DNA from: Sulfurimonas sp.
GTDB taxonomy: Bacteria > Campylobacterota > Campylobacteria > Campylobacterales > Sulfurimonadaceae
DNA: 52,234 nt
NCBI GenBank assembly: GCA_021648405.1
Contig: JAKISX010000004.1
Coordinates: 1 to 52,234 of the forward strand
Direction of reading: 5' to 3'
The notes below the pieces were generated by a model. It made no database searches. It was not told where the DNA came from and worked only from the letters and a program-made list of their open reading frames with translations. Numbering within the stretch: the first letter of the stretch is position 1; each line of letters starts with the position of its first letter. Of the stretch, positions 1,782-52,133 are shown piece after piece. A program made the position numbers and the translations under genes.

Positions 1782-1814
1782 TTAAAGTAAAGTCTATAAA
1801 AGACTCTACTTTAA
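1782..1814. terminator. Bidirectional hairpin terminator between convergent genes
   Basis: The arms TTAAAGTAAAGTCT and AGACTCTACTTTAA pair with one A-C mismatch around an ATAAA loop. The hairpin sits between the SpoU gene (+) and the Cys-rich gene (-), which converge here. A/T runs flank both sides. Confidence 0.5.
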
Positions 1815-1820
1815 AAATAA

Positions 1821-2072
1821 CTATTTAGATCCACACTTACCAGCACTACATTTCATAGCACTATCAGATTTTTCGCCTTTGTTGCTACATTTTTCATCTT
1901 TACACTCAACTCCTTTTTCACAACACTTTTTTTCACAACACTTCTTTTCACAATCTTTATCACATACTTTTTCAGACGTTGCAGAAGCAGATACCGCAGA
2001 AAGAGATGTTGTTCCTAAACTCAAAAATAATGCAGCTCCAAGAAGAAGTGCAGACAATTTTAATTTACTCAT
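1821..2072 (-). CDS. Small Cys-rich exported protein, probably metal-binding
   Basis: The 83-residue protein has a clear signal peptide (about residues 1-30, ending near SAVSASA). Its tail is crowded with cysteine, lysine and glutamate: CDKDCEKKCCEKKCCEK, then further single cysteines to the C-terminus (about ten in all). The repeated C-C pairs suggest periplasmic chelation of a soft metal such as Cu, Zn or Ni, or a redox role. It is divergent from a two-component system 100 bases away, with direct repeats between them, so it is a likely target of that system. The metal is not knowable from sequence. Confidence 0.7.
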   Translation of the reverse strand: MSKLKLSALLLGAALFLSLGTTSLSAVSASATSEKVCDKDCEKKCCEKKCCEKGVECKDEKCSNKGEKSDSAMKCSAGKCGSK

Positions 2073-2118
2073 ATTTAATCCTTTATATTAAATTAGACGT
2101 AAGCATATCAAAACAATG

Positions 2119-2151
2119 TGTAGTGTTTGTGTAGTGTTTGTGTAGTTATGA
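2119..2151. promoter_or_regulatory. Three 11-bp direct repeats, likely OmpR/PhoB-type operator
   Basis: TGTAGTGTTTG occurs at 2119-2129 and 2130-2140, followed by the related TGTAGTTATGA at 2141-2151. A head-to-tail 11-bp spacing is the usual architecture for OmpR/PhoB-family regulators. The repeats lie in the divergent promoter region between the Cys-rich gene and the response regulator gene. Confidence 0.6.
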
Positions 2152-2173
2152 TAGTATTTATACCAAAGGGGTT

Positions 2174-2830
2174 ATGGTGAAAATACTACTCATGGAAGAT
2201 GATGCTGTTTTATCCAGTATATTGTTAGATTATTTACGCGAATCGTGGCAAGTTGACTATGCTTATAATACACAAGAGGTTTATGTTAAACTTGAAAATA
2301 TAAGATATGACTTATTTATTTTTGACATAAATGTAGTTGGTCAGAGCGGATTAGAACTCCTAAAAGAGTTAAGAGAGTTTAACAACACTACTCCAACCAT
2401 TATTATTACAGCTTATACAGATACAGACTATCTAAAACAGGCCTTTGAATTTGGAGCTTGCGATTATGTAAAAAAACCTTTTGATTTAGAAGAATTAAAT
2501 GCTCGCATCTTAAACACAAAAACTATCTTTAATATTCAAAACGATACACAAATAGAAATTAGCCATAATATATATTTTAATATTTCAAAAAAACAAATAA
2601 TTAATAATGATGAAATTTTTACAATTAGCGCAAAAGATAGTAAAATTTTAGAATATTTTCTCAAAAATCAAAAGCGTGTTATAACTGCTGAAGAATTAAC
2701 CCAAAATATTTGGGATTTTGACAATATGCCAAGTGACGCAACTGTTCGCTCACATATTAGAACTCTAAGAGAGCTGATTGGTAAAAATAAAATTAATACA
2801 ATAAGAGGAAGCGGTTATACCTATGAATGA
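2174..2830 (+). CDS. OmpR-family response regulator
   Basis: The protein has a receiver domain with acidic pocket MEDD, phospho-acceptor Asp near residue 51 (FIFDINVVG), the IITAYTD switch region and the conserved Lys in DYVKKPFD. A winged-helix DNA-binding domain follows (SDATVRSHIRTLRELIG...IRGSGYTYE). I chose the ATG at 2174 because AAAGGGG lies just before it and because residue 1 then falls where receiver domains begin. A longer reading from TTG 2138 would run through the operator repeats. The gene overlaps the kinase gene by 8 bases. Likely inputs are metal or envelope stress, judging by the divergent Cys-rich gene. Confidence 0.88.
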   Translation: MVKILLMEDDAVLSSILLDYLRESWQVDYAYNTQEVYVKLENIRYDLFIFDINVVGQSGLELLKELREFNNTTPTIIITAYTDTDYLKQAFEFGACDYVKKPFDLEELNARILNTKTIFNIQNDTQIEISHNIYFNISKKQIINNDEIFTISAKDSKILEYFLKNQKRVITAEELTQNIWDFDNMPSDATVRSHIRTLRELIGKNKINTIRGSGYTYE

Positions 2831-4659: not shown

Positions 4660-4793
4660 TATTTTGTGAATTCTACTATAATATAACTAACAAAATATTT
4701 AAAGCTTGTCATAAAAGAGTTGCTAAGATGTTTTTTAGTATAATTTATGAAATTGTACTCTTAATTATTATAAAATTTTGCAAAGGTATATAT

Positions 4794-6719
4794 TTGTTAA
4801 ACTTCAAATCCTTTCTTAAACTACTACAAGAATCATTTAGAGATTTACTGCCTATTATTTTAGTAATCCTATTTTTTCAACTAGCTATCATTCAAACAAT
4901 ACCTGAAAACTGGGTGGCTACTACTATAGGACTAGCAATAGTTGGTGTTGGTCTTGCTGTATTTCTTCTTGGGCTTGAGGTTGGAATTTTTCCAGTTGGA
5001 GAAGGGCTAGCAAGTGATTTTGCAAAAAAAGGTTCAACTATATGGATACTAATTTTTGCCTTCATGATAGGTTTTGGAACTACTGTTGCCGAACCTGCTC
5101 TTTTAGTTATTGCCGATAAAGCAGCTGGAATAAGTTCTGGTAGGATTGATGCATTTGTTCTTAGAATGGTAGTTGCATTTTCTGTTGGACTTGCAATTGT
5201 TATTGGTGTATGGAGAATTATAAAAGGTCACCCTATTCACTATTACATTATTGCTGGTTATATTTTAGTTGTCGCTGCTACTTTTTTCTCGCCAAAAGAG
5301 ATAGTTGGTCTTGCTTTTGACCTCGGTGGCGTTACAACTTCAACTGTAACAGTTCCATTAGTAGCTGCTCTTGGAATTGGTTTAGCTTCAGCAATCAAAG
5401 GACGCAACCCTGTTTTAGATGGCTTTGGATTAATTGCTTTTGCTTCATTAACACCTATGATATTTGTACAGTTTTATGGTATTTATGTATATCAGTTTAT
5501 AGAAGTTTCTGATATTGTTATTCCTATTGTGCAACATACAGCTGAAACAGCTGCTACTTTTGATTTTAGCTTTATAGCTCTCTTAAAAGGTTTATTGAGT
5601 GTCTCTTTGGATGTTGCCCCTATATTAGCAATTATCTTATTTTTTCAGTATGCTATATTAAAAGAATCTGTTGATAATTTAAAAGAGGTTATTATTGGAT
5701 TTATCCTTGTTATTATTGGACTTGGTGCTTTTATTATTGGTTTAGAGATGGGTCTATTCTCGCTTGGTGAGACAATGGCATATCAATTAACTAAAAACAC
5801 AAATAATTTTATAATTTATGCATTTTCTTTTGCGATAGGCTTTTCTACAACTATGGCTGAACCAGCCTTAACTGCAATTGCAAAAAAAGCAAAAGAGATT
5901 AGTGATGGTAAAATAAATGATTTTATTCTTCGTTTGTTTGTTGCTACAGGCGTTGCCATAGGTATATCTTTGGGTACATTTCGTATTATAAATGGTGGCG
6001 ATATTGTTTATTTTATCATGGCTGGTTATCTATTTGTTATAGCACTTACATTTATATCTCCTAAATATATCATACCTATCGCTTATGATAGTGGCGGCGT
6101 CACAACTTCAACTGTAACAGTTCCACTTGTTGCGGCACTTGGACTTGGGTTAGCTACAAATATACCAGGGCGTGATCCATTAATAGATGGCTTTGGACTT
6201 ATCGCTTTTGCCTCGTTATTTCCTATTTTAACAGTTATGGCATATGGCGTTATAACTGAGAGAATGGGCGTGATGGGCGAGCATGAAAAAGAAGAGATTA
6301 AACTCTTTGAACTCCAACATGCTATTGAAGATGCGCAAAACATGGAACTTGCAACAATTAGAGTTGATGGGACAGATAAAAGGCATTCATATAAAATGGA
6401 ATTTTCAGCTGTTCATATTCTTGTCCCTATAAAACTTCAAGATAAAGCTATATCACTTGCAAAAGAAGCTGGAGCTACCGGTGTTACTATTATGCATGCT
6501 AATGGTTTTGGGCTTTTTCAAATGGATAATTTTTATAATCATCTACAAAACAATTCTACCCATTCAAACCTAATGTTTATTGTACCAAGCAAAAAAGTTG
6601 ATAAAATTGTTAGTAAAGTTATGATGGGACTTGATATTGTTGGAAAAGGGGATGGTCTTTCATTTTCATATCCAGTAACCCACTTAAAAGGATTAAGATT
6701 AAAAAGTGAAGATTTGTAG
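4794..6719 (+). CDS. Double-DUF1538 membrane protein with PII-like C-terminal domain
   Basis: Two homologous halves each carry about six membrane helices and the repeated blocks [11 protein letters not shown] / [11 protein letters not shown] and [17 protein letters not shown] (twice, near-identical), typical of DUF1538 proteins. After the second half a soluble region of about 120 residues ([20 protein letters not shown]...[12 protein letters not shown]...[12 protein letters not shown]) resembles a PII-type nucleotide or metabolite sensor. I chose TTG 4794 because AAAGG precedes it by 7 bases; an ATG at 4728 would add 22 residues. DUF1538 is of unknown function, but the duplicated architecture with a regulatory tail suggests a transporter gated by a small molecule. 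Confidence 0.85.
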
Positions 6720-6746: not shown

Positions 6747-7409
6747 ATGCGCAGCATGAAAAAAAATAAAGAATTAAATTTCATTTCCTTATTTGCAGGA
6801 CTTAGCAAAGATGAAATAGAAAAAATTGTAAATATCTCAACCATTAAAAAGATAAACAAATACTCTATACTTTTTTATCAGGGTGACGATAGTAACTACT
6901 TACACATAGTATTAAGAGGGAAAATAGAGGTTTATAAAGTAAATGCCAAGGGTAAAAATATTCCATTAAATCTCTTTAAGCCTTATGAATCTATAGCTGA
7001 ACTCTCTAACTATAAAGGTATTGCTTTTCCTGCAACTGCACATGCTTTAGAAGATAGTGAAATTTTATCAATTGATTTTAAAAAATTTAAAGAGGAGTTT
7101 TTTTCTCATCCTGTCATTGTAAGTAATATTTTAGAATCTATGTCCAACAAAATCATAAACCTTGAGAAGTTTATCTCTTCTAACATTACCATGAATGCAA
7201 CAAAAAGAGTTATCTATCATCTTCTTGAAAATAAAATTGACCTTAATGCTCAAAAACATTCAGAAATTGCTGACCAGCTTAACATCTCTCCTGTTACACT
7301 GTCTCGCATCCTAAAAAAATTAAAAGAAAATAAAGCTATCAGCTTGGAGAATAATATCTACAAAATTACTCAAAAATTACTCAAAATGAATTCTATTAAC
7401 CAATGTTAA
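6747..7409 (+). CDS. Crp/Fnr-family regulator, probable nitrosative-stress regulator (NssR-like)
   Basis: An N-terminal cyclic-nucleotide-type beta-barrel (about residues 20-120) is followed by a dimer helix and a C-terminal helix-turn-helix (HSEIADQLNISPVTLSRILKK). Only the last residue is cysteine, so there is no FNR iron-sulfur cluster. The recognition helix has VTLSR where FNR has ETISR. Loss of the Glu that reads G in TTGAT fits a TTAAC half-site, and exactly such a site overlaps its stop codon ahead of hcp. Campylobacter NssR, which controls nitric-oxide defence, uses that operator. Start could be ATG 6747 or ATG 6756; neither has a good ribosome-binding site. Confidence 0.85.
   Translation: MRSMKKNKELNFISLFAGLSKDEIEKIVNISTIKKINKYSILFYQGDDSNYLHIVLRGKIEVYKVNAKGKNIPLNLFKPYESIAELSNYKGIAFPATAHALEDSEILSIDFKKFKEEFFSHPVIVSNILESMSNKIINLEKFISSNITMNATKRVIYHLLENKIDLNAQKHSEIADQLNISPVTLSRILKKLKENKAISLENNIYKITQKLLKMNSINQC
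7396..7409. promoter_or_regulatory. NssR-type operator TTAAC-N4-GTTAA ahead of hcp
   Basis: TTAACCAATGTTAA is a perfect inverted repeat (ATTAAC/GTTAAT with the flanking bases) overlapping the regulator stop codon. It matches the operator described for Campylobacter NssR. Its centre lies about 41 bases before a start point predicted from the TACTAT -10 element, the class II activator position. Confidence 0.75.
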
Positions 7410-7431
7410 TGACCTATTACTCTAAAAAAAC

Positions 7432-7437
7432 TACTAT
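7432..7437 (+). promoter_or_regulatory. -10 element of the hcp promoter
   Basis: TACTAT lies 30 bases after the centre of the NssR-type operator and 32 bases before the hcp start codon. No good -35 element is visible, as expected for activator-dependent promoters in these bacteria. Confidence 0.5.
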
Positions 7438-7468
7438 TGCCTAAATTTAAAAATTAAAAGGAAATAAT

Positions 7469-8791
7469 TTGAGTATGTTTTGTTATCAATGTGAGATGAG
7501 CACCCCTAATGGCTGTGGAAGCAATGGGGCTGTAGTTGGAGTTTGTGGGAAAGATGAAAATCTATCTAGGCTACAAGATTTAATGGTCTTTGGACTCAAA
7601 GGGCTTAGTGCTTACCGTGAACACCTAAATGAATTAGCGCCTGAGCAAACCAAAAATGTAGATGATGTAATGAGTGAAACGCTCTACTTTACACTAACAA
7701 ATGTAAACTTTAACTTTGATGATCATATCAAACAACTTATGAAAATAGGAAGTGCTGGTATAGAAGTAATGGACAAGCTTTCAAATGCGCATACAGGAAG
7801 TTTTGGTATCCCAACTCCCGTTGTTGTGCCTCAAAATATGGTTGAGGGAAAAGCAATTTTAGTAAGTGGGCATAATTTAGATATGTTTGAAAAGCTTCTA
7901 AAAGCAACAGAGGGTAAAGGCATTAATGTCTATACTCACTCGGAGATGTTACCAGCTCACGGATACCCAGAGCTTAGAAAATACAAACATCTCAAAGGTA
8001 ATATTGGTAAAGCATGGTTTGACCAAGTCCAGCTTATGAAGAAGTTTAAGGGTACTTTTGTTGTTAATACAAACTGTATCATCCCTCCAAAGAAAAATGC
8101 TGATTATTTGGATAGAGTATTTACTTGTAAAATAGTAGGAATTGAAGGGGCGAGACACATAGACAATGATGATTTTACACAATTAATAGAAAAAACACTA
8201 GCCTGTGAAGATACAAATATGAATGAGAACTTAACACTCACAACAGGTCACCACTACAAAACCATCTTGACTCTTGCGCCTCAAATTTTAGATGCAATCA
8301 AAACTAAAAAAATCAGACAATTTTTTGTAATAGCTGGTTGTGATGCCCCTGGAAAAGAAGGAAACTACTACAGAGAAATGGCAGAAATGTTGCCGAGTGA
8401 TTGTGTTATTATTACATCAAGTTGTGGTAAGTTTAGATTTAACGATATAGACTTTGGAGTAATTGAGGGGACAGAGATTCCAAGATATTTAGATCTTGGA
8501 CAGTGTAATGACAGTAATGGAGCAGTAGAGATAGCAAAAGCAATAAGCGAAGCTCTCGATACACCAATTAATGATCTTCCAATCTCTATTGTGCTTTCAT
8601 GGATGGAACAAAAAGCAGTTATTATACTACTTGCTCTCTTTAGTTTAGGCATACAAAATATCTACCTAGGTCCAAAGCCACCACAGTTTGTAAATGAAGA
8701 TATTTTTAATTTTTTAGCAGAAACTTTTAACTTGCATCTTACTGGTAATGCAAAAAAGGATCTCCAAAACTTGCTTTTGACTGAGAGTTAA
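7469..8791 (+). CDS. hcp: Hybrid cluster protein (class III-like)
   Basis: Hcp handles nitric oxide and reactive nitrogen species through an Fe-S-O hybrid cluster. The N-terminal cysteines C5, C8, C16 and C26 form the first cluster. The hybrid-cluster ligands are visible in order: YTHSEMLPAHGYP, VNTNC, ITSSCGKFR, LGQCND and SWMEQKAV (Glu and Lys). At 440 residues it is about 100 shorter than class I/II Hcp, which fits class III proteins lacking one helical bundle. The start is TTG with AAAAGGAAA 6-8 bases upstream. The preceding Crp/Fnr gene and its operator imply induction by nitrosative stress. No hcr partner is next to it. Confidence 0.93.
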   Translation: MSMFCYQCEMSTPNGCGSNGAVVGVCGKDENLSRLQDLMVFGLKGLSAYREHLNELAPEQTKNVDDVMSETLYFTLTNVNFNFDDHIKQLMKIGSAGIEVMDKLSNAHTGSFGIPTPVVVPQNMVEGKAILVSGHNLDMFEKLLKATEGKGINVYTHSEMLPAHGYPELRKYKHLKGNIGKAWFDQVQLMKKFKGTFVVNTNCIIPPKKNADYLDRVFTCKIVGIEGARHIDNDDFTQLIEKTLACEDTNMNENLTLTTGHHYKTILTLAPQILDAIKTKKIRQFFVIAGCDAPGKEGNYYREMAEMLPSDCVIITSSCGKFRFNDIDFGVIEGTEIPRYLDLGQCNDSNGAVEIAKAISEALDTPINDLPISIVLSWMEQKAVIILLALFSLGIQNIYLGPKPPQFVNEDIFNFLAETFNLHLTGNAKKDLQNLLLTES

Positions 8792-50832: not shown

Positions 50833-52133
50833 AGGTGATTTTTGACAAAAATTATTTGATGCAAACACGCGCTTTTCCAAATTATGACCTATCTTTACAA
50901 ATACCTGAAGTAACTTTGAGTGATATTGAAAGTGAAATTAATGCCTCAAACAATGAACCAATGGGAGTTTCAGTTATTAACCCTTATATGCTTGGAGGTG
51001 GTGGTCGTCCAGAGATTGGGCCACTACACAAATGGAGTTCTACTTATCTGTTAAGTATGGATAAAAGAGCCAAAGAAGCAATGATGAAAATTGGTACTTC
51101 AGGCGGTAGTTGGTCTATTCACTATCGTGATAAAAACACAGACCTACCAATATCTGTATTAGATTACCCTTATGCATCGCTTCTTGCAGGTGGTTTTAGT
51201 ACAACCAATCCAAACACTGGACAAAACGAAGCTTTTGCTAGTTGTGATGATTGTAACTCTCCATATTCACATGATGCAGCACATCAACCTTCATTTGCTT
51301 ACACTCCTTATTTAATTACTGGAGATCATTTTTACCTCGAAGAACTTATGTTTTGGTCAAGTTTTAATATACTTTGGAATCACCCTGCTAATAGAAATCA
51401 CAAAGAAGGTTTAATAAAAGCTAATCAGGTTAGAGCTCAAGCGTGGATGTTACGAACCATAGGACAAGCAGCTTATATTACACCAGATGATCATCCTCTA
51501 AAAAGTTATTATGTGGATGTTATTAATAATAACCTTACATACTACAACAATAGATATTTAGTAGATTCCACTACCTTCAGCCCTCTTGGTTTTGTAACAC
51601 AAAGTTACGCAATAAATCATGCGGAGGGAAGAGGGAACCCATCTTGGATGGATGATTTCTTCACCTGGTCTATAGGCTACTTAAAAGCATTAGATTTTCA
51701 AGGCGCAAGCCCGTTGTTAGAGTGGAAAGTAACATCAGCTGTAGAGCGCATGACTAATGAAAATTATTGTTGGATATTAGGGTCTGCTTATTTTATGGTA
51801 GTGAGAGATGGTCCTAATAATCCGCTATATACCACTTTTACAGAGGCATATAATGAAACTGTAAATGTAAGTTTTCCTGAAGTTGCTGGTTTGGAATGTG
51901 GTAGCCAAGCAATGGCTGATGCTTTAGGTTATAATTTAGGAGAGATGTATGGATACTCAGCCAGTACAGTAGGTTATCCCGCAAACTTGCAGATTGCACT
52001 TGCCGTTGCCGCAGAAACTTCGTACCCAAACGCTGAATTAGCTTGGAAAGTATTTGAGAGTCGTTCAAATAAACCCAATTATGCTAACTCTCCTCAATTT
52101 GCAATAGTACCTGTTTTTTTTGAAAAATATTGA
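50793..52133 (+). CDS. C-terminal part of the frameshifted large secreted protein
   Basis: It continues the preceding protein after the A6 tract; the ATG at 50793 is an in-frame accident within QARWKK. A helical toroid-like domain of about 400 residues follows (MDKRAKEAMMKIG, SYDAAHQPS-like HDAAHQPSFAYTPYLITGD, WMLRTIGQAAYITPD). This fits an alpha/alpha-toroid carbohydrate-active enzyme, but specificity is unknown. Stop TGA overlaps the IS21-type repeat, so the gene may be cut short at the IS end. Confidence 0.7.
   Translation: MEKTFWNNGDTGLEVIFDKNYLMQTRAFPNYDLSLQIPEVTLSDIESEINASNNEPMGVSVINPYMLGGGGRPEIGPLHKWSSTYLLSMDKRAKEAMMKIGTSGGSWSIHYRDKNTDLPISVLDYPYASLLAGGFSTTNPNTGQNEAFASCDDCNSPYSHDAAHQPSFAYTPYLITGDHFYLEELMFWSSFNILWNHPANRNHKEGLIKANQVRAQAWMLRTIGQAAYITPDDHPLKSYYVDVINNNLTYYNNRYLVDSTTFSPLGFVTQSYAINHAEGRGNPSWMDDFFTWSIGYLKALDFQGASPLLEWKVTSAVERMTNENYCWILGSAYFMVVRDGPNNPLYTTFTEAYNETVNVSFPEVAGLECGSQAMADALGYNLGEMYGYSASTVGYPANLQIALAVAAETSYPNAELAWKVFESRSNKPNYANSPQFAIVPVFFEKY

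Follow-up and report, generated by a model that had tools for sequence, protein, structure and literature searches.

Does a small cysteine-rich secreted protein, whose gene faces a two-component system across a stretch of short direct repeats, belong to a metal or redox stress circuit, and if so to which kind? The question is raised by a locus of a Sulfurimonas species (GenBank assembly GCA_021648405.1, 1.68 Mb, 82% complete), on a contig of 52,234 nucleotides (JAKISX010000004.1, here C54), the whole of which is the window analyzed here. From the letters of this DNA alone, the original prediction proposed a circuit in which the regulator binds the repeats, and matched it to no named family. 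We consider it likely that the locus is part of a Cu(I)/Ag(I)-type periplasmic stress regulon, similar to CrdRS, which would induce metal efflux together with a thiolate chelator that is probably unmodified.

Organization of the locus

The divergent arrangement held up in the domain analysis, Pfam recognizing both partners of a two-component system, the genes of which overlap (Table 1). The start of the regulator was read as the ATG at 2174, the list of open reading frames giving a TTG start at 2138. Downstream of the Cys-rich gene, the inverted repeat separates it from a convergent SpoU/TrmH-type methylase gene (961-1740, + strand). The surroundings comprise a stretch resembling a 5'-truncated GGDEF domain (601-948, with GGEEF recognized by eye), which lies between an ORF at 163-579 and the methylase gene, a membrane protein with a double DUF1538 and a P-II-like domain at its end (4728-6719), and a Crp/Fnr-type regulator followed by a 440-aa ORF (6747-8791), which we take to resemble hydroxylamine reductase.

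Table 1. Features of the divergent locus, with positions counted in the window
Feature	Position	Strand	Basis or remark
Inverted repeat, possible terminator	1782..1814		arms of 14 nt, 93% complementary; putative function
Cys-rich secreted protein, 83 aa	1821..2072	-	ORF list and alignment with seven proteins
-10 box TATGCT of the Cys-rich gene, 9 nt from the operator	2102..2107	-	sequence; site predicted from the fixed offset in relatives
Operator TGTGTAGTGTT-TGTGTAGTGTT-TGTGTAGT, then TATGA; TACACAAACAC when read toward the Cys-rich gene	2117..2151	+	
Probable -10 box TATGAT of the regulator promoter, abutting the third half-site	2147..2152	+	predicted by reading the sequence
OmpR/PhoB-family response regulator, 218 aa	2174..2830	+	Pfam PF00072 (Response_reg) and PF00486 (Trans_reg_C)
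Sensor histidine kinase, 379 aa	2823..3962	+	Pfam HisKA and HATPase_c

The Cys-rich protein and the GKCG family

The pairs of adjacent cysteines noticed in the original prediction are present: the 83-aa product has ten cysteines, all within the approximately 57 residues that follow a Sec-type signal peptide (judged by eye), and these are arranged as a CxxxC, two CC pairs and one C-terminal MKCSAGKCGSK motif. The protein has no match in the Pfam or NCBIfam models, and the Pfam metallothionein model matched neither it nor ten relatives.

Using the regulator as the query, we retrieved the best 80 of 112 related loci and inspected 64 of these 80 for Cys-rich ORFs at most 900 nt upstream of the regulator. 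A secreted Cys-rich gene diverges from the regulator in seven of them (L020-L024, L037 and L043), and a GKCG-tailed, cytochrome-like protein is encoded upstream of it in L073 and L074; the remaining inspected loci have no Cys-rich ORF upstream, or chance-looking ORFs only. In L025, L031 and L032 a GKCG gene lies somewhat more distant from the regulator. The Cys-rich protein is 34-60% identical to the seven proteins encoded beside the orthologous regulators. All eight possess the signal peptide and most end with KCGAGKCG, the inner GKCG motifs being largely swapped for CC, CxxxC and similar pairs in the window protein, L020 and L021. The NCBIfam model NF050137 (KCGExKCG_twice, HvfA family) matched L023, L024 and L037 above its cut-off and L022 just below it, with no match in L020 and L021; the window protein keeps xGKCG once (the C-terminal SAGKCG), and the repeated motif is found in its relatives only. 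Because of this alignment and of the NF050137 matches of its orthologues, the Cys-rich protein is, as judged by sequence, a degenerate relative of the GKCG (HvfA/EGKCG-like) family. The view that no named family applies is thus correct for the protein itself, and for L020 and L021, but not for the orthologues L023, L024 and L037.

In this genome we found one other GKCG protein, of 137 aa and lipoprotein-like, which scores above the NF050137 cut-off. Four further GKCG-like matches (C3:7283, C13:16928, C23:18224 and window position 51996) fall in open stretches of 7-26 codons and were taken as chance. Several short GKCG proteins of relatives contain metallothionein-like CxC/CxxC stretches (L011:343-675, e.g. 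CKCTECKCDKSDSKTCTCEKCNC; L112:1242-1607; L125:1491-1913), as do GKCG proteins of L025 (4818-5150), L031 (4836-5129) and L032 (4778-5119); such short proteins (L011, L112 and others) had no match to the Pfam metallothionein model. GKCG also occurs as a C-terminal tail, seen by eye, on NosL (L127:1485-1994), MerTP (L177:4209-4940) and cytochrome c (L119:997-1575) proteins. Further tails lie in L074:1084-1719, L105:1078-1539 and L131:730-1422, with hosts named by eye only, and the hosts include a heavy-metal-domain-like protein and a membrane protein. The fused tails are below the NF050137 cut-off or have no match to this model. The MerTP fusion suggests that other soft metals may be relevant too.

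A direct-repeat operator at a fixed distance from the -10 box

The three repeats predicted between the divergent genes were found head to tail, TGTAGTGTTTG at 2119-2129 and 2130-2140, and TGTAGTTATGA at 2141-2151. The pattern GTGTA-N6-GTGTA occurs twice in the window, both times within 2119-2151, whereas 30 first-order Markov sequences contain it 0.0 times on average. In the whole genome, GTGTAN5TGTGTA gives four matches and its reversed control none; two of the four overlap in the window and the others lie at C4:24841 and C4:576, which makes three promoters. Over 27 genomes there are 70 matches versus 27 for the reversed control (61 versus 19 in the 19 genomes with the GKCG pattern, 9 versus 8 in the eight without it), so that single matches elsewhere can be chance and, given a background of about one per genome, their position matters. 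The Markov, reversed-pattern and shuffling controls rule out the explanation of the repeats as a chance occurrence.

Read toward the regulated gene, the site is TACACA-N5-TACACA-N9-TATAAT, with TACACAAACAY as the half-site. A TATAAT box with at most one mismatch lies at offset 9 in 62 of the 90 distinct sites in the loci compared, as against 0-8 with 0-8 of the 90 at the other offsets from 0 to 39; the loci of some of these sites were retrieved by the operator pattern, which influences the number of sites, not the spacing. The 11-bp direct repeat is thereby placed in the predicted -35 region, at a fixed distance from the -10 box. PhoB-type operators are likewise made of head-to-tail 11-bp half-sites that replace the -35 element at a fixed distance from the -10 box, but they use another half-site. 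The reading in which the operator points away from the Cys-rich gene was dropped, the -10 box occurring at the fixed offset on the strand of that gene.

The exact operator is present upstream of GKCG ORFs in 34 of 70 distinct regions, and in 39 of them when one mismatch is allowed, a level at which 20 single-base shuffles of each upstream region give a mean of 0.15 of 70. The 31 regions lacking it at this level include those of 12 lipoprotein-like genes, several of which lie inside operons, and also those of short secreted proteins (e.g. L109, L111, L112 and L128).

Since the closest orthologous promoters (L020 and L021) have two half-sites, the window has one additional tandem copy. This third repeat extends into TATGAT (2147-2152), probably a -10 box from which the regulator gene itself is transcribed and whose letters L020 and L021 share. 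For the Cys-rich gene the -10 box reads TATGCT and departs from TATAAT at two positions; such a weak box would fit the requirement for an activator.

The predicted regulon

Besides the window, the operator occurs at C4:24841, where offset 9 holds a perfect TATAAT and a CusCBA-like efflux operon follows, for which Pfam identified YtkA, OEP, HlyD_D23 (CusB-like) and ACR_tran (AcrB/CusA-like) domains; this operon closes with the 137-aa GKCG protein, the only one found in the genome besides the Cys-rich protein. Another perfect promoter (C4:576-591) precedes a gluconate-2-dehydrogenase-subunit-3-like gene truncated by the contig end. This Gluconate_2-dh3 gene lies at L202:2-448 (G000:C4), and in relatives an apparent GMC oxidoreductase gene, identified by eye, comes after it.

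In relatives, operator promoters precede genes for DoxX-like proteins (11 loci by eye, L113 scanned), DsbD (by scanning in L188 and L205 and by eye in L215), multicopper oxidases (L058 and L066) and MsrAB (L195); in L071 and L075 the operator, with its offset-9 box, precedes the regulator gene itself. Together with the GKCG tails, this set of genes points to copper and related soft metals. Our searches, made in open-licence papers, yielded no report of this regulon.

Co-occurrence of the regulator with the operator

Regulator matches with at least 56% identity occur in 54 of the 135 genomes of the genus, this one included. The GKCG pattern is found in 53 of these 54 genomes versus 44 of the 81 others (Fisher p 2.4e-9, kinship ignored). 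Regulator and GKCG gene lie on one contig in 31 of the 54, at most 1.6 kb apart in 15 and at most 20 kb apart in 29 of the 31, this pairing using profile matches down to E 4.4e-7 only; in the other 23 they are on different contigs or no match is listed.

We then considered 50 hand-picked loci, one per genome, of which two were dropped (L200, where no ORF passed the filter, and L149, where the upstream stretch was short). When one mismatch is tolerated, the operator stands before the short GKCG gene in 29 of the 31 genomes that have the regulator orthologue versus 7 of the 17 that do not (p 1.4e-4, kinship ignored). The two orthologue genomes lacking it are G077 (four mismatches) and G036 (two mismatches), and a further genome outside this sample, G078, has a GKCG-type ORF (L131) without the operator and no orthologue. 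Six of the seven operator genomes without the orthologue hold a 43-49%-identical paralogue, and six other genomes with that paralogue only have no operator. A second group of regulator paralogues, 43-51% identical to the window regulator, is represented by G010:C6:21800-22444, G003:C2:36164-36808 and others; it adjoins efflux genes in G010 and lies approximately 2 kb away from them in G003. In the present genome, the window regulator alone scored below 1e-45.

The sensor kinase

In 38 aligned kinases, two potential metal ligands of the periplasmic domain are conserved, Met63 (38/38) and His119 (36/38), the phospho-acceptor being His185. Only eight columns of this domain reach 36/38 and six of them are not of metal-ligand types, so that the conservation of Met63 and His119 is suggestive only; Q35, G90, Q128 and other columns are as conserved as His119. 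The membrane helices of the kinase were recognized by eye and in the model, and the sensor domain was modeled with a pLDDT of 95.3 in a PDC/Cache-like fold. Superposition of this domain on silver-bound CusS (5ku5) gave Z 8.9, rmsd 2.8 and 105 aligned residues (VIA-align), a score tied with those of other PDC/Cache domains, the model being no closer to CusS than to WalK or chemoreceptor domains. A Foldseek search with the sensor alone returned no match with E < 0.001, and among the best 50 matches listed for the full-length kinase most are kinase cores. The curated cut-offs of the NCBIfam heavy-metal regulator and kinase models (CusRS/CopRS) were far from reached (TIGR01387, 89.1 versus 279.2 bits; TIGR01386, 87.7 versus 292.55 bits).

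Distribution of the modifying enzymes

The GKCG pattern occurs in 97 of the 135 genus genomes (63 of the 79 with a completeness of 90% or more and a contamination of 5% or less), and the reversed pattern is absent from the matches listed for the 135; a profile built from the Cys-rich protein and the seven related ones matches in 96 of them. By comparison, MNIO (PF05114) was found in 5 of the 135 genomes (4 of the 79 of higher quality) and DUF2063 in 4, three of these above its cut-off. Neither was found in the present, 82% complete assembly. As all five MNIO genomes carry the GKCG pattern, 92 of the 97 pattern genomes have no MNIO match, and the same is true of 59 of the 63 pattern genomes of higher quality.

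Among 397 genomes sampled over the phylum, NF050137 scored above its cut-off in 40, and MNIO was found in 25 (27 at E 0.001). The overlap of these lists shows that MNIO accompanies NF050137 in 18 of 30 genomes outside the genus and in none of 10 inside it; 12 of the 30 lack MNIO and therefore orphan GKCG genes exist outside the genus too. GKCG genes without MNIO are thus the rule inside the genus and are also present outside. A published survey, in the part of it available, counts 67 genomes without MNIO among 2583 EGKCG genomes. Elsewhere in the phylum the motif adjoins MNIO genes, as in G499, G483 and G442. The MNIO clusters of the genus are those of L180 (G001), L181 (G114), L179 (G018), L182 (G097) and L183 (G083); four of the five contain DUF2063, and DoxX-like and beta-lactamase-fold-like neighbors were seen by eye. 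In addition to its MNIO cluster, each of G001, G018 and G114 has a separate GKCG gene behind the operator.

Discussion

We propose that the PDC-like domain of the kinase senses an excess of periplasmic metal, with Met63 and His119 as candidate ligands, and that the kinase then phosphorylates the regulator. By binding a head-to-tail pair of 11-bp half-sites, which occupy the -35 region at a distance of 9 nt from the -10 box, the regulator would activate transcription. In this genome we predict as its targets the Cys-rich protein, the RND efflux operon (in the order YtkA-like small secreted protein, outer-membrane channel, CusB-like adaptor, CusA-like pump and GKCG lipoprotein) and the gluconate-2-dehydrogenase-subunit-3-like gene. 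Because neither MNIO nor its DUF2063 partner was found, the Cys-rich protein would probably chelate the metal by plain thiolates, as a periplasmic metallothionein-like buffer which may spare other thiols and feed or protect the pump. Metallothioneins are likewise short and Lys/Cys-rich, with CC, CxC or CxxxC clusters; the Cys-rich protein differs from them by its signal peptide, its retained GKCG motif and its lack of a match to the Pfam metallothionein model.

The closest known system appears to be CrdRS of Helicobacter pylori, which in copper activates crdAB and czcAB, i.e. a secreted protein and an RND efflux system (PMC4557348, PMC9696931, as far as the available parts of these papers go). 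CrdR reportedly recognizes a 21-nt sequence at crdA; in the RNA-seq of the same study, crdA is not among the CrdRS-regulated genes, according to the accessible text (PMC9927306). The resemblance extends to the phylum, Campylobacterota, to the pairing of an OmpR-family regulator with a transmembrane HisKA kinase (gene layout and domains), and may include the control of a small secreted protein and of RND efflux genes, as the shared operator with its exact promoter spacing at C4:24841 would suggest; the gene order of the C4 operon would fit this. The 21-nt site of CrdR has about the length of two 11-bp half-sites. Two features set the present system apart from CrdRS: the GKCG lipoprotein encoded at the end of the efflux operon, and the GKCG/CC protein whose gene diverges from that of the regulator. 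What is new with respect to CrdRS is, as the genome comparisons indicate, a metallophore-type GKCG family without its modifying enzymes, lost or never possessed, across most of the genus.

The HvfA/EGKCG oxazolin precursors or 'captophorins' (NF050137, NF050188) are described, in the available parts of PMC12452194 and PMC13097082, as copper-linked proteins with a signal peptide and repeated xGKCG motifs, often accompanied by DoxX; elsewhere this HvfA-type family gives thiooxazole copper-binding peptides (same sources), and for thiooxazoles PMC13097082 gives an absorbance near 305 nm. The window protein shares with them the xGKCG motif in a secreted product (secretion judged by eye), but its gene adjoins a two-component system instead of lying in an MNIO operon, no MNIO or DUF2063 was found in the genome, and its sequence is degenerate, below the threshold of every model. 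The Cys-rich protein might nevertheless be an ordinary modified metallophore, if the MNIO gene lies in the portion of the genome that the assembly lacks or if an unrecognized enzyme converts the GKCG cysteines. The incompleteness of the assembly leaves room for this, the motif is found next to MNIO genes elsewhere in the phylum (G499, G483 and G442), and both KCGAGKCG and the operator-controlled DoxX-like genes of relatives are typical of MNIO clusters (PMC12452194, available part). We regard it as rather unlikely, however, in view of the 92 of 97 pattern genomes (59 of 63 of higher quality) without an MNIO match, of the restriction of DUF2063 to 4 of the 135 genus genomes, and of the window clade, in which CC and CxxxC pairs have taken the place of most GKCG motifs.

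Two other explanations keep the regulon but change its signal or its regulator. The signal could be thiol stress, or nitrosative or oxidative stress, in place of a metal, with the Cys-rich protein as a sacrificial thiol pool. We judge this improbable, since the RND efflux operon and the multicopper oxidases behind the operator, like the GKCG-tailed NosL and MerTP proteins, have metal functions. It is worth noting, however, that the operator also precedes DsbD genes at three loci and an MsrAB gene at one, and that CrdRS of H. pylori has also been reported to respond to nitric oxide (PMC9696931, available part). Hence, of the metal or redox circuit initially envisaged, comparative sequence evidence favors the metal part, of copper type and with the repeats as the probable operator of the regulator, a redox component being conceivable in view of these DsbD and MsrAB genes. 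As to the regulator, another OmpR-family member might read the operators, the adjacent pair controlling something else, as could be argued from the presence of the operator in 7 of the 17 genomes that lack the orthologue and from the related paralogue group beside the efflux operon of G010 (C6:21800-22444). We give this little credence, given that the window regulator is the only one below 1e-45 in this genome, that the operator precedes the regulator gene in this genome and also in L071 and L075, where it is accompanied by the offset-9 box, and that operator and orthologue co-occur (29 of 31 versus 7 of 17). The Cu(I)/Ag(I)-type regulon, driven by the adjacent two-component system, is the explanation that we prefer.

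On a wider scale, we put forward, as a proposal with about even chances, that nearly throughout the genus Sulfurimonas the members of a copper-binding RiPP family have become separated from the enzymes that modify them. The GKCG proteins and DoxX would have been retained and placed under the control of a two-component system for copper, GKCG tails would have spread onto metal-handling proteins, and in the window clade the motif would be turning into CC/CxxxC clusters. If true, this would show how a modified metallophore can naturally give rise to an unmodified periplasmic metallothionein or, alternatively, would reveal an unmodified state ancestral to the captophorins. In this genus GKCG proteins without modifying enzymes are the rule, many of their genes lying under a conserved and positioned operator, which makes it directly testable whether an unmodified GKCG protein binds copper and protects cells. 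The operator itself would be usable for predicting metal-response genes in marine Campylobacterota.
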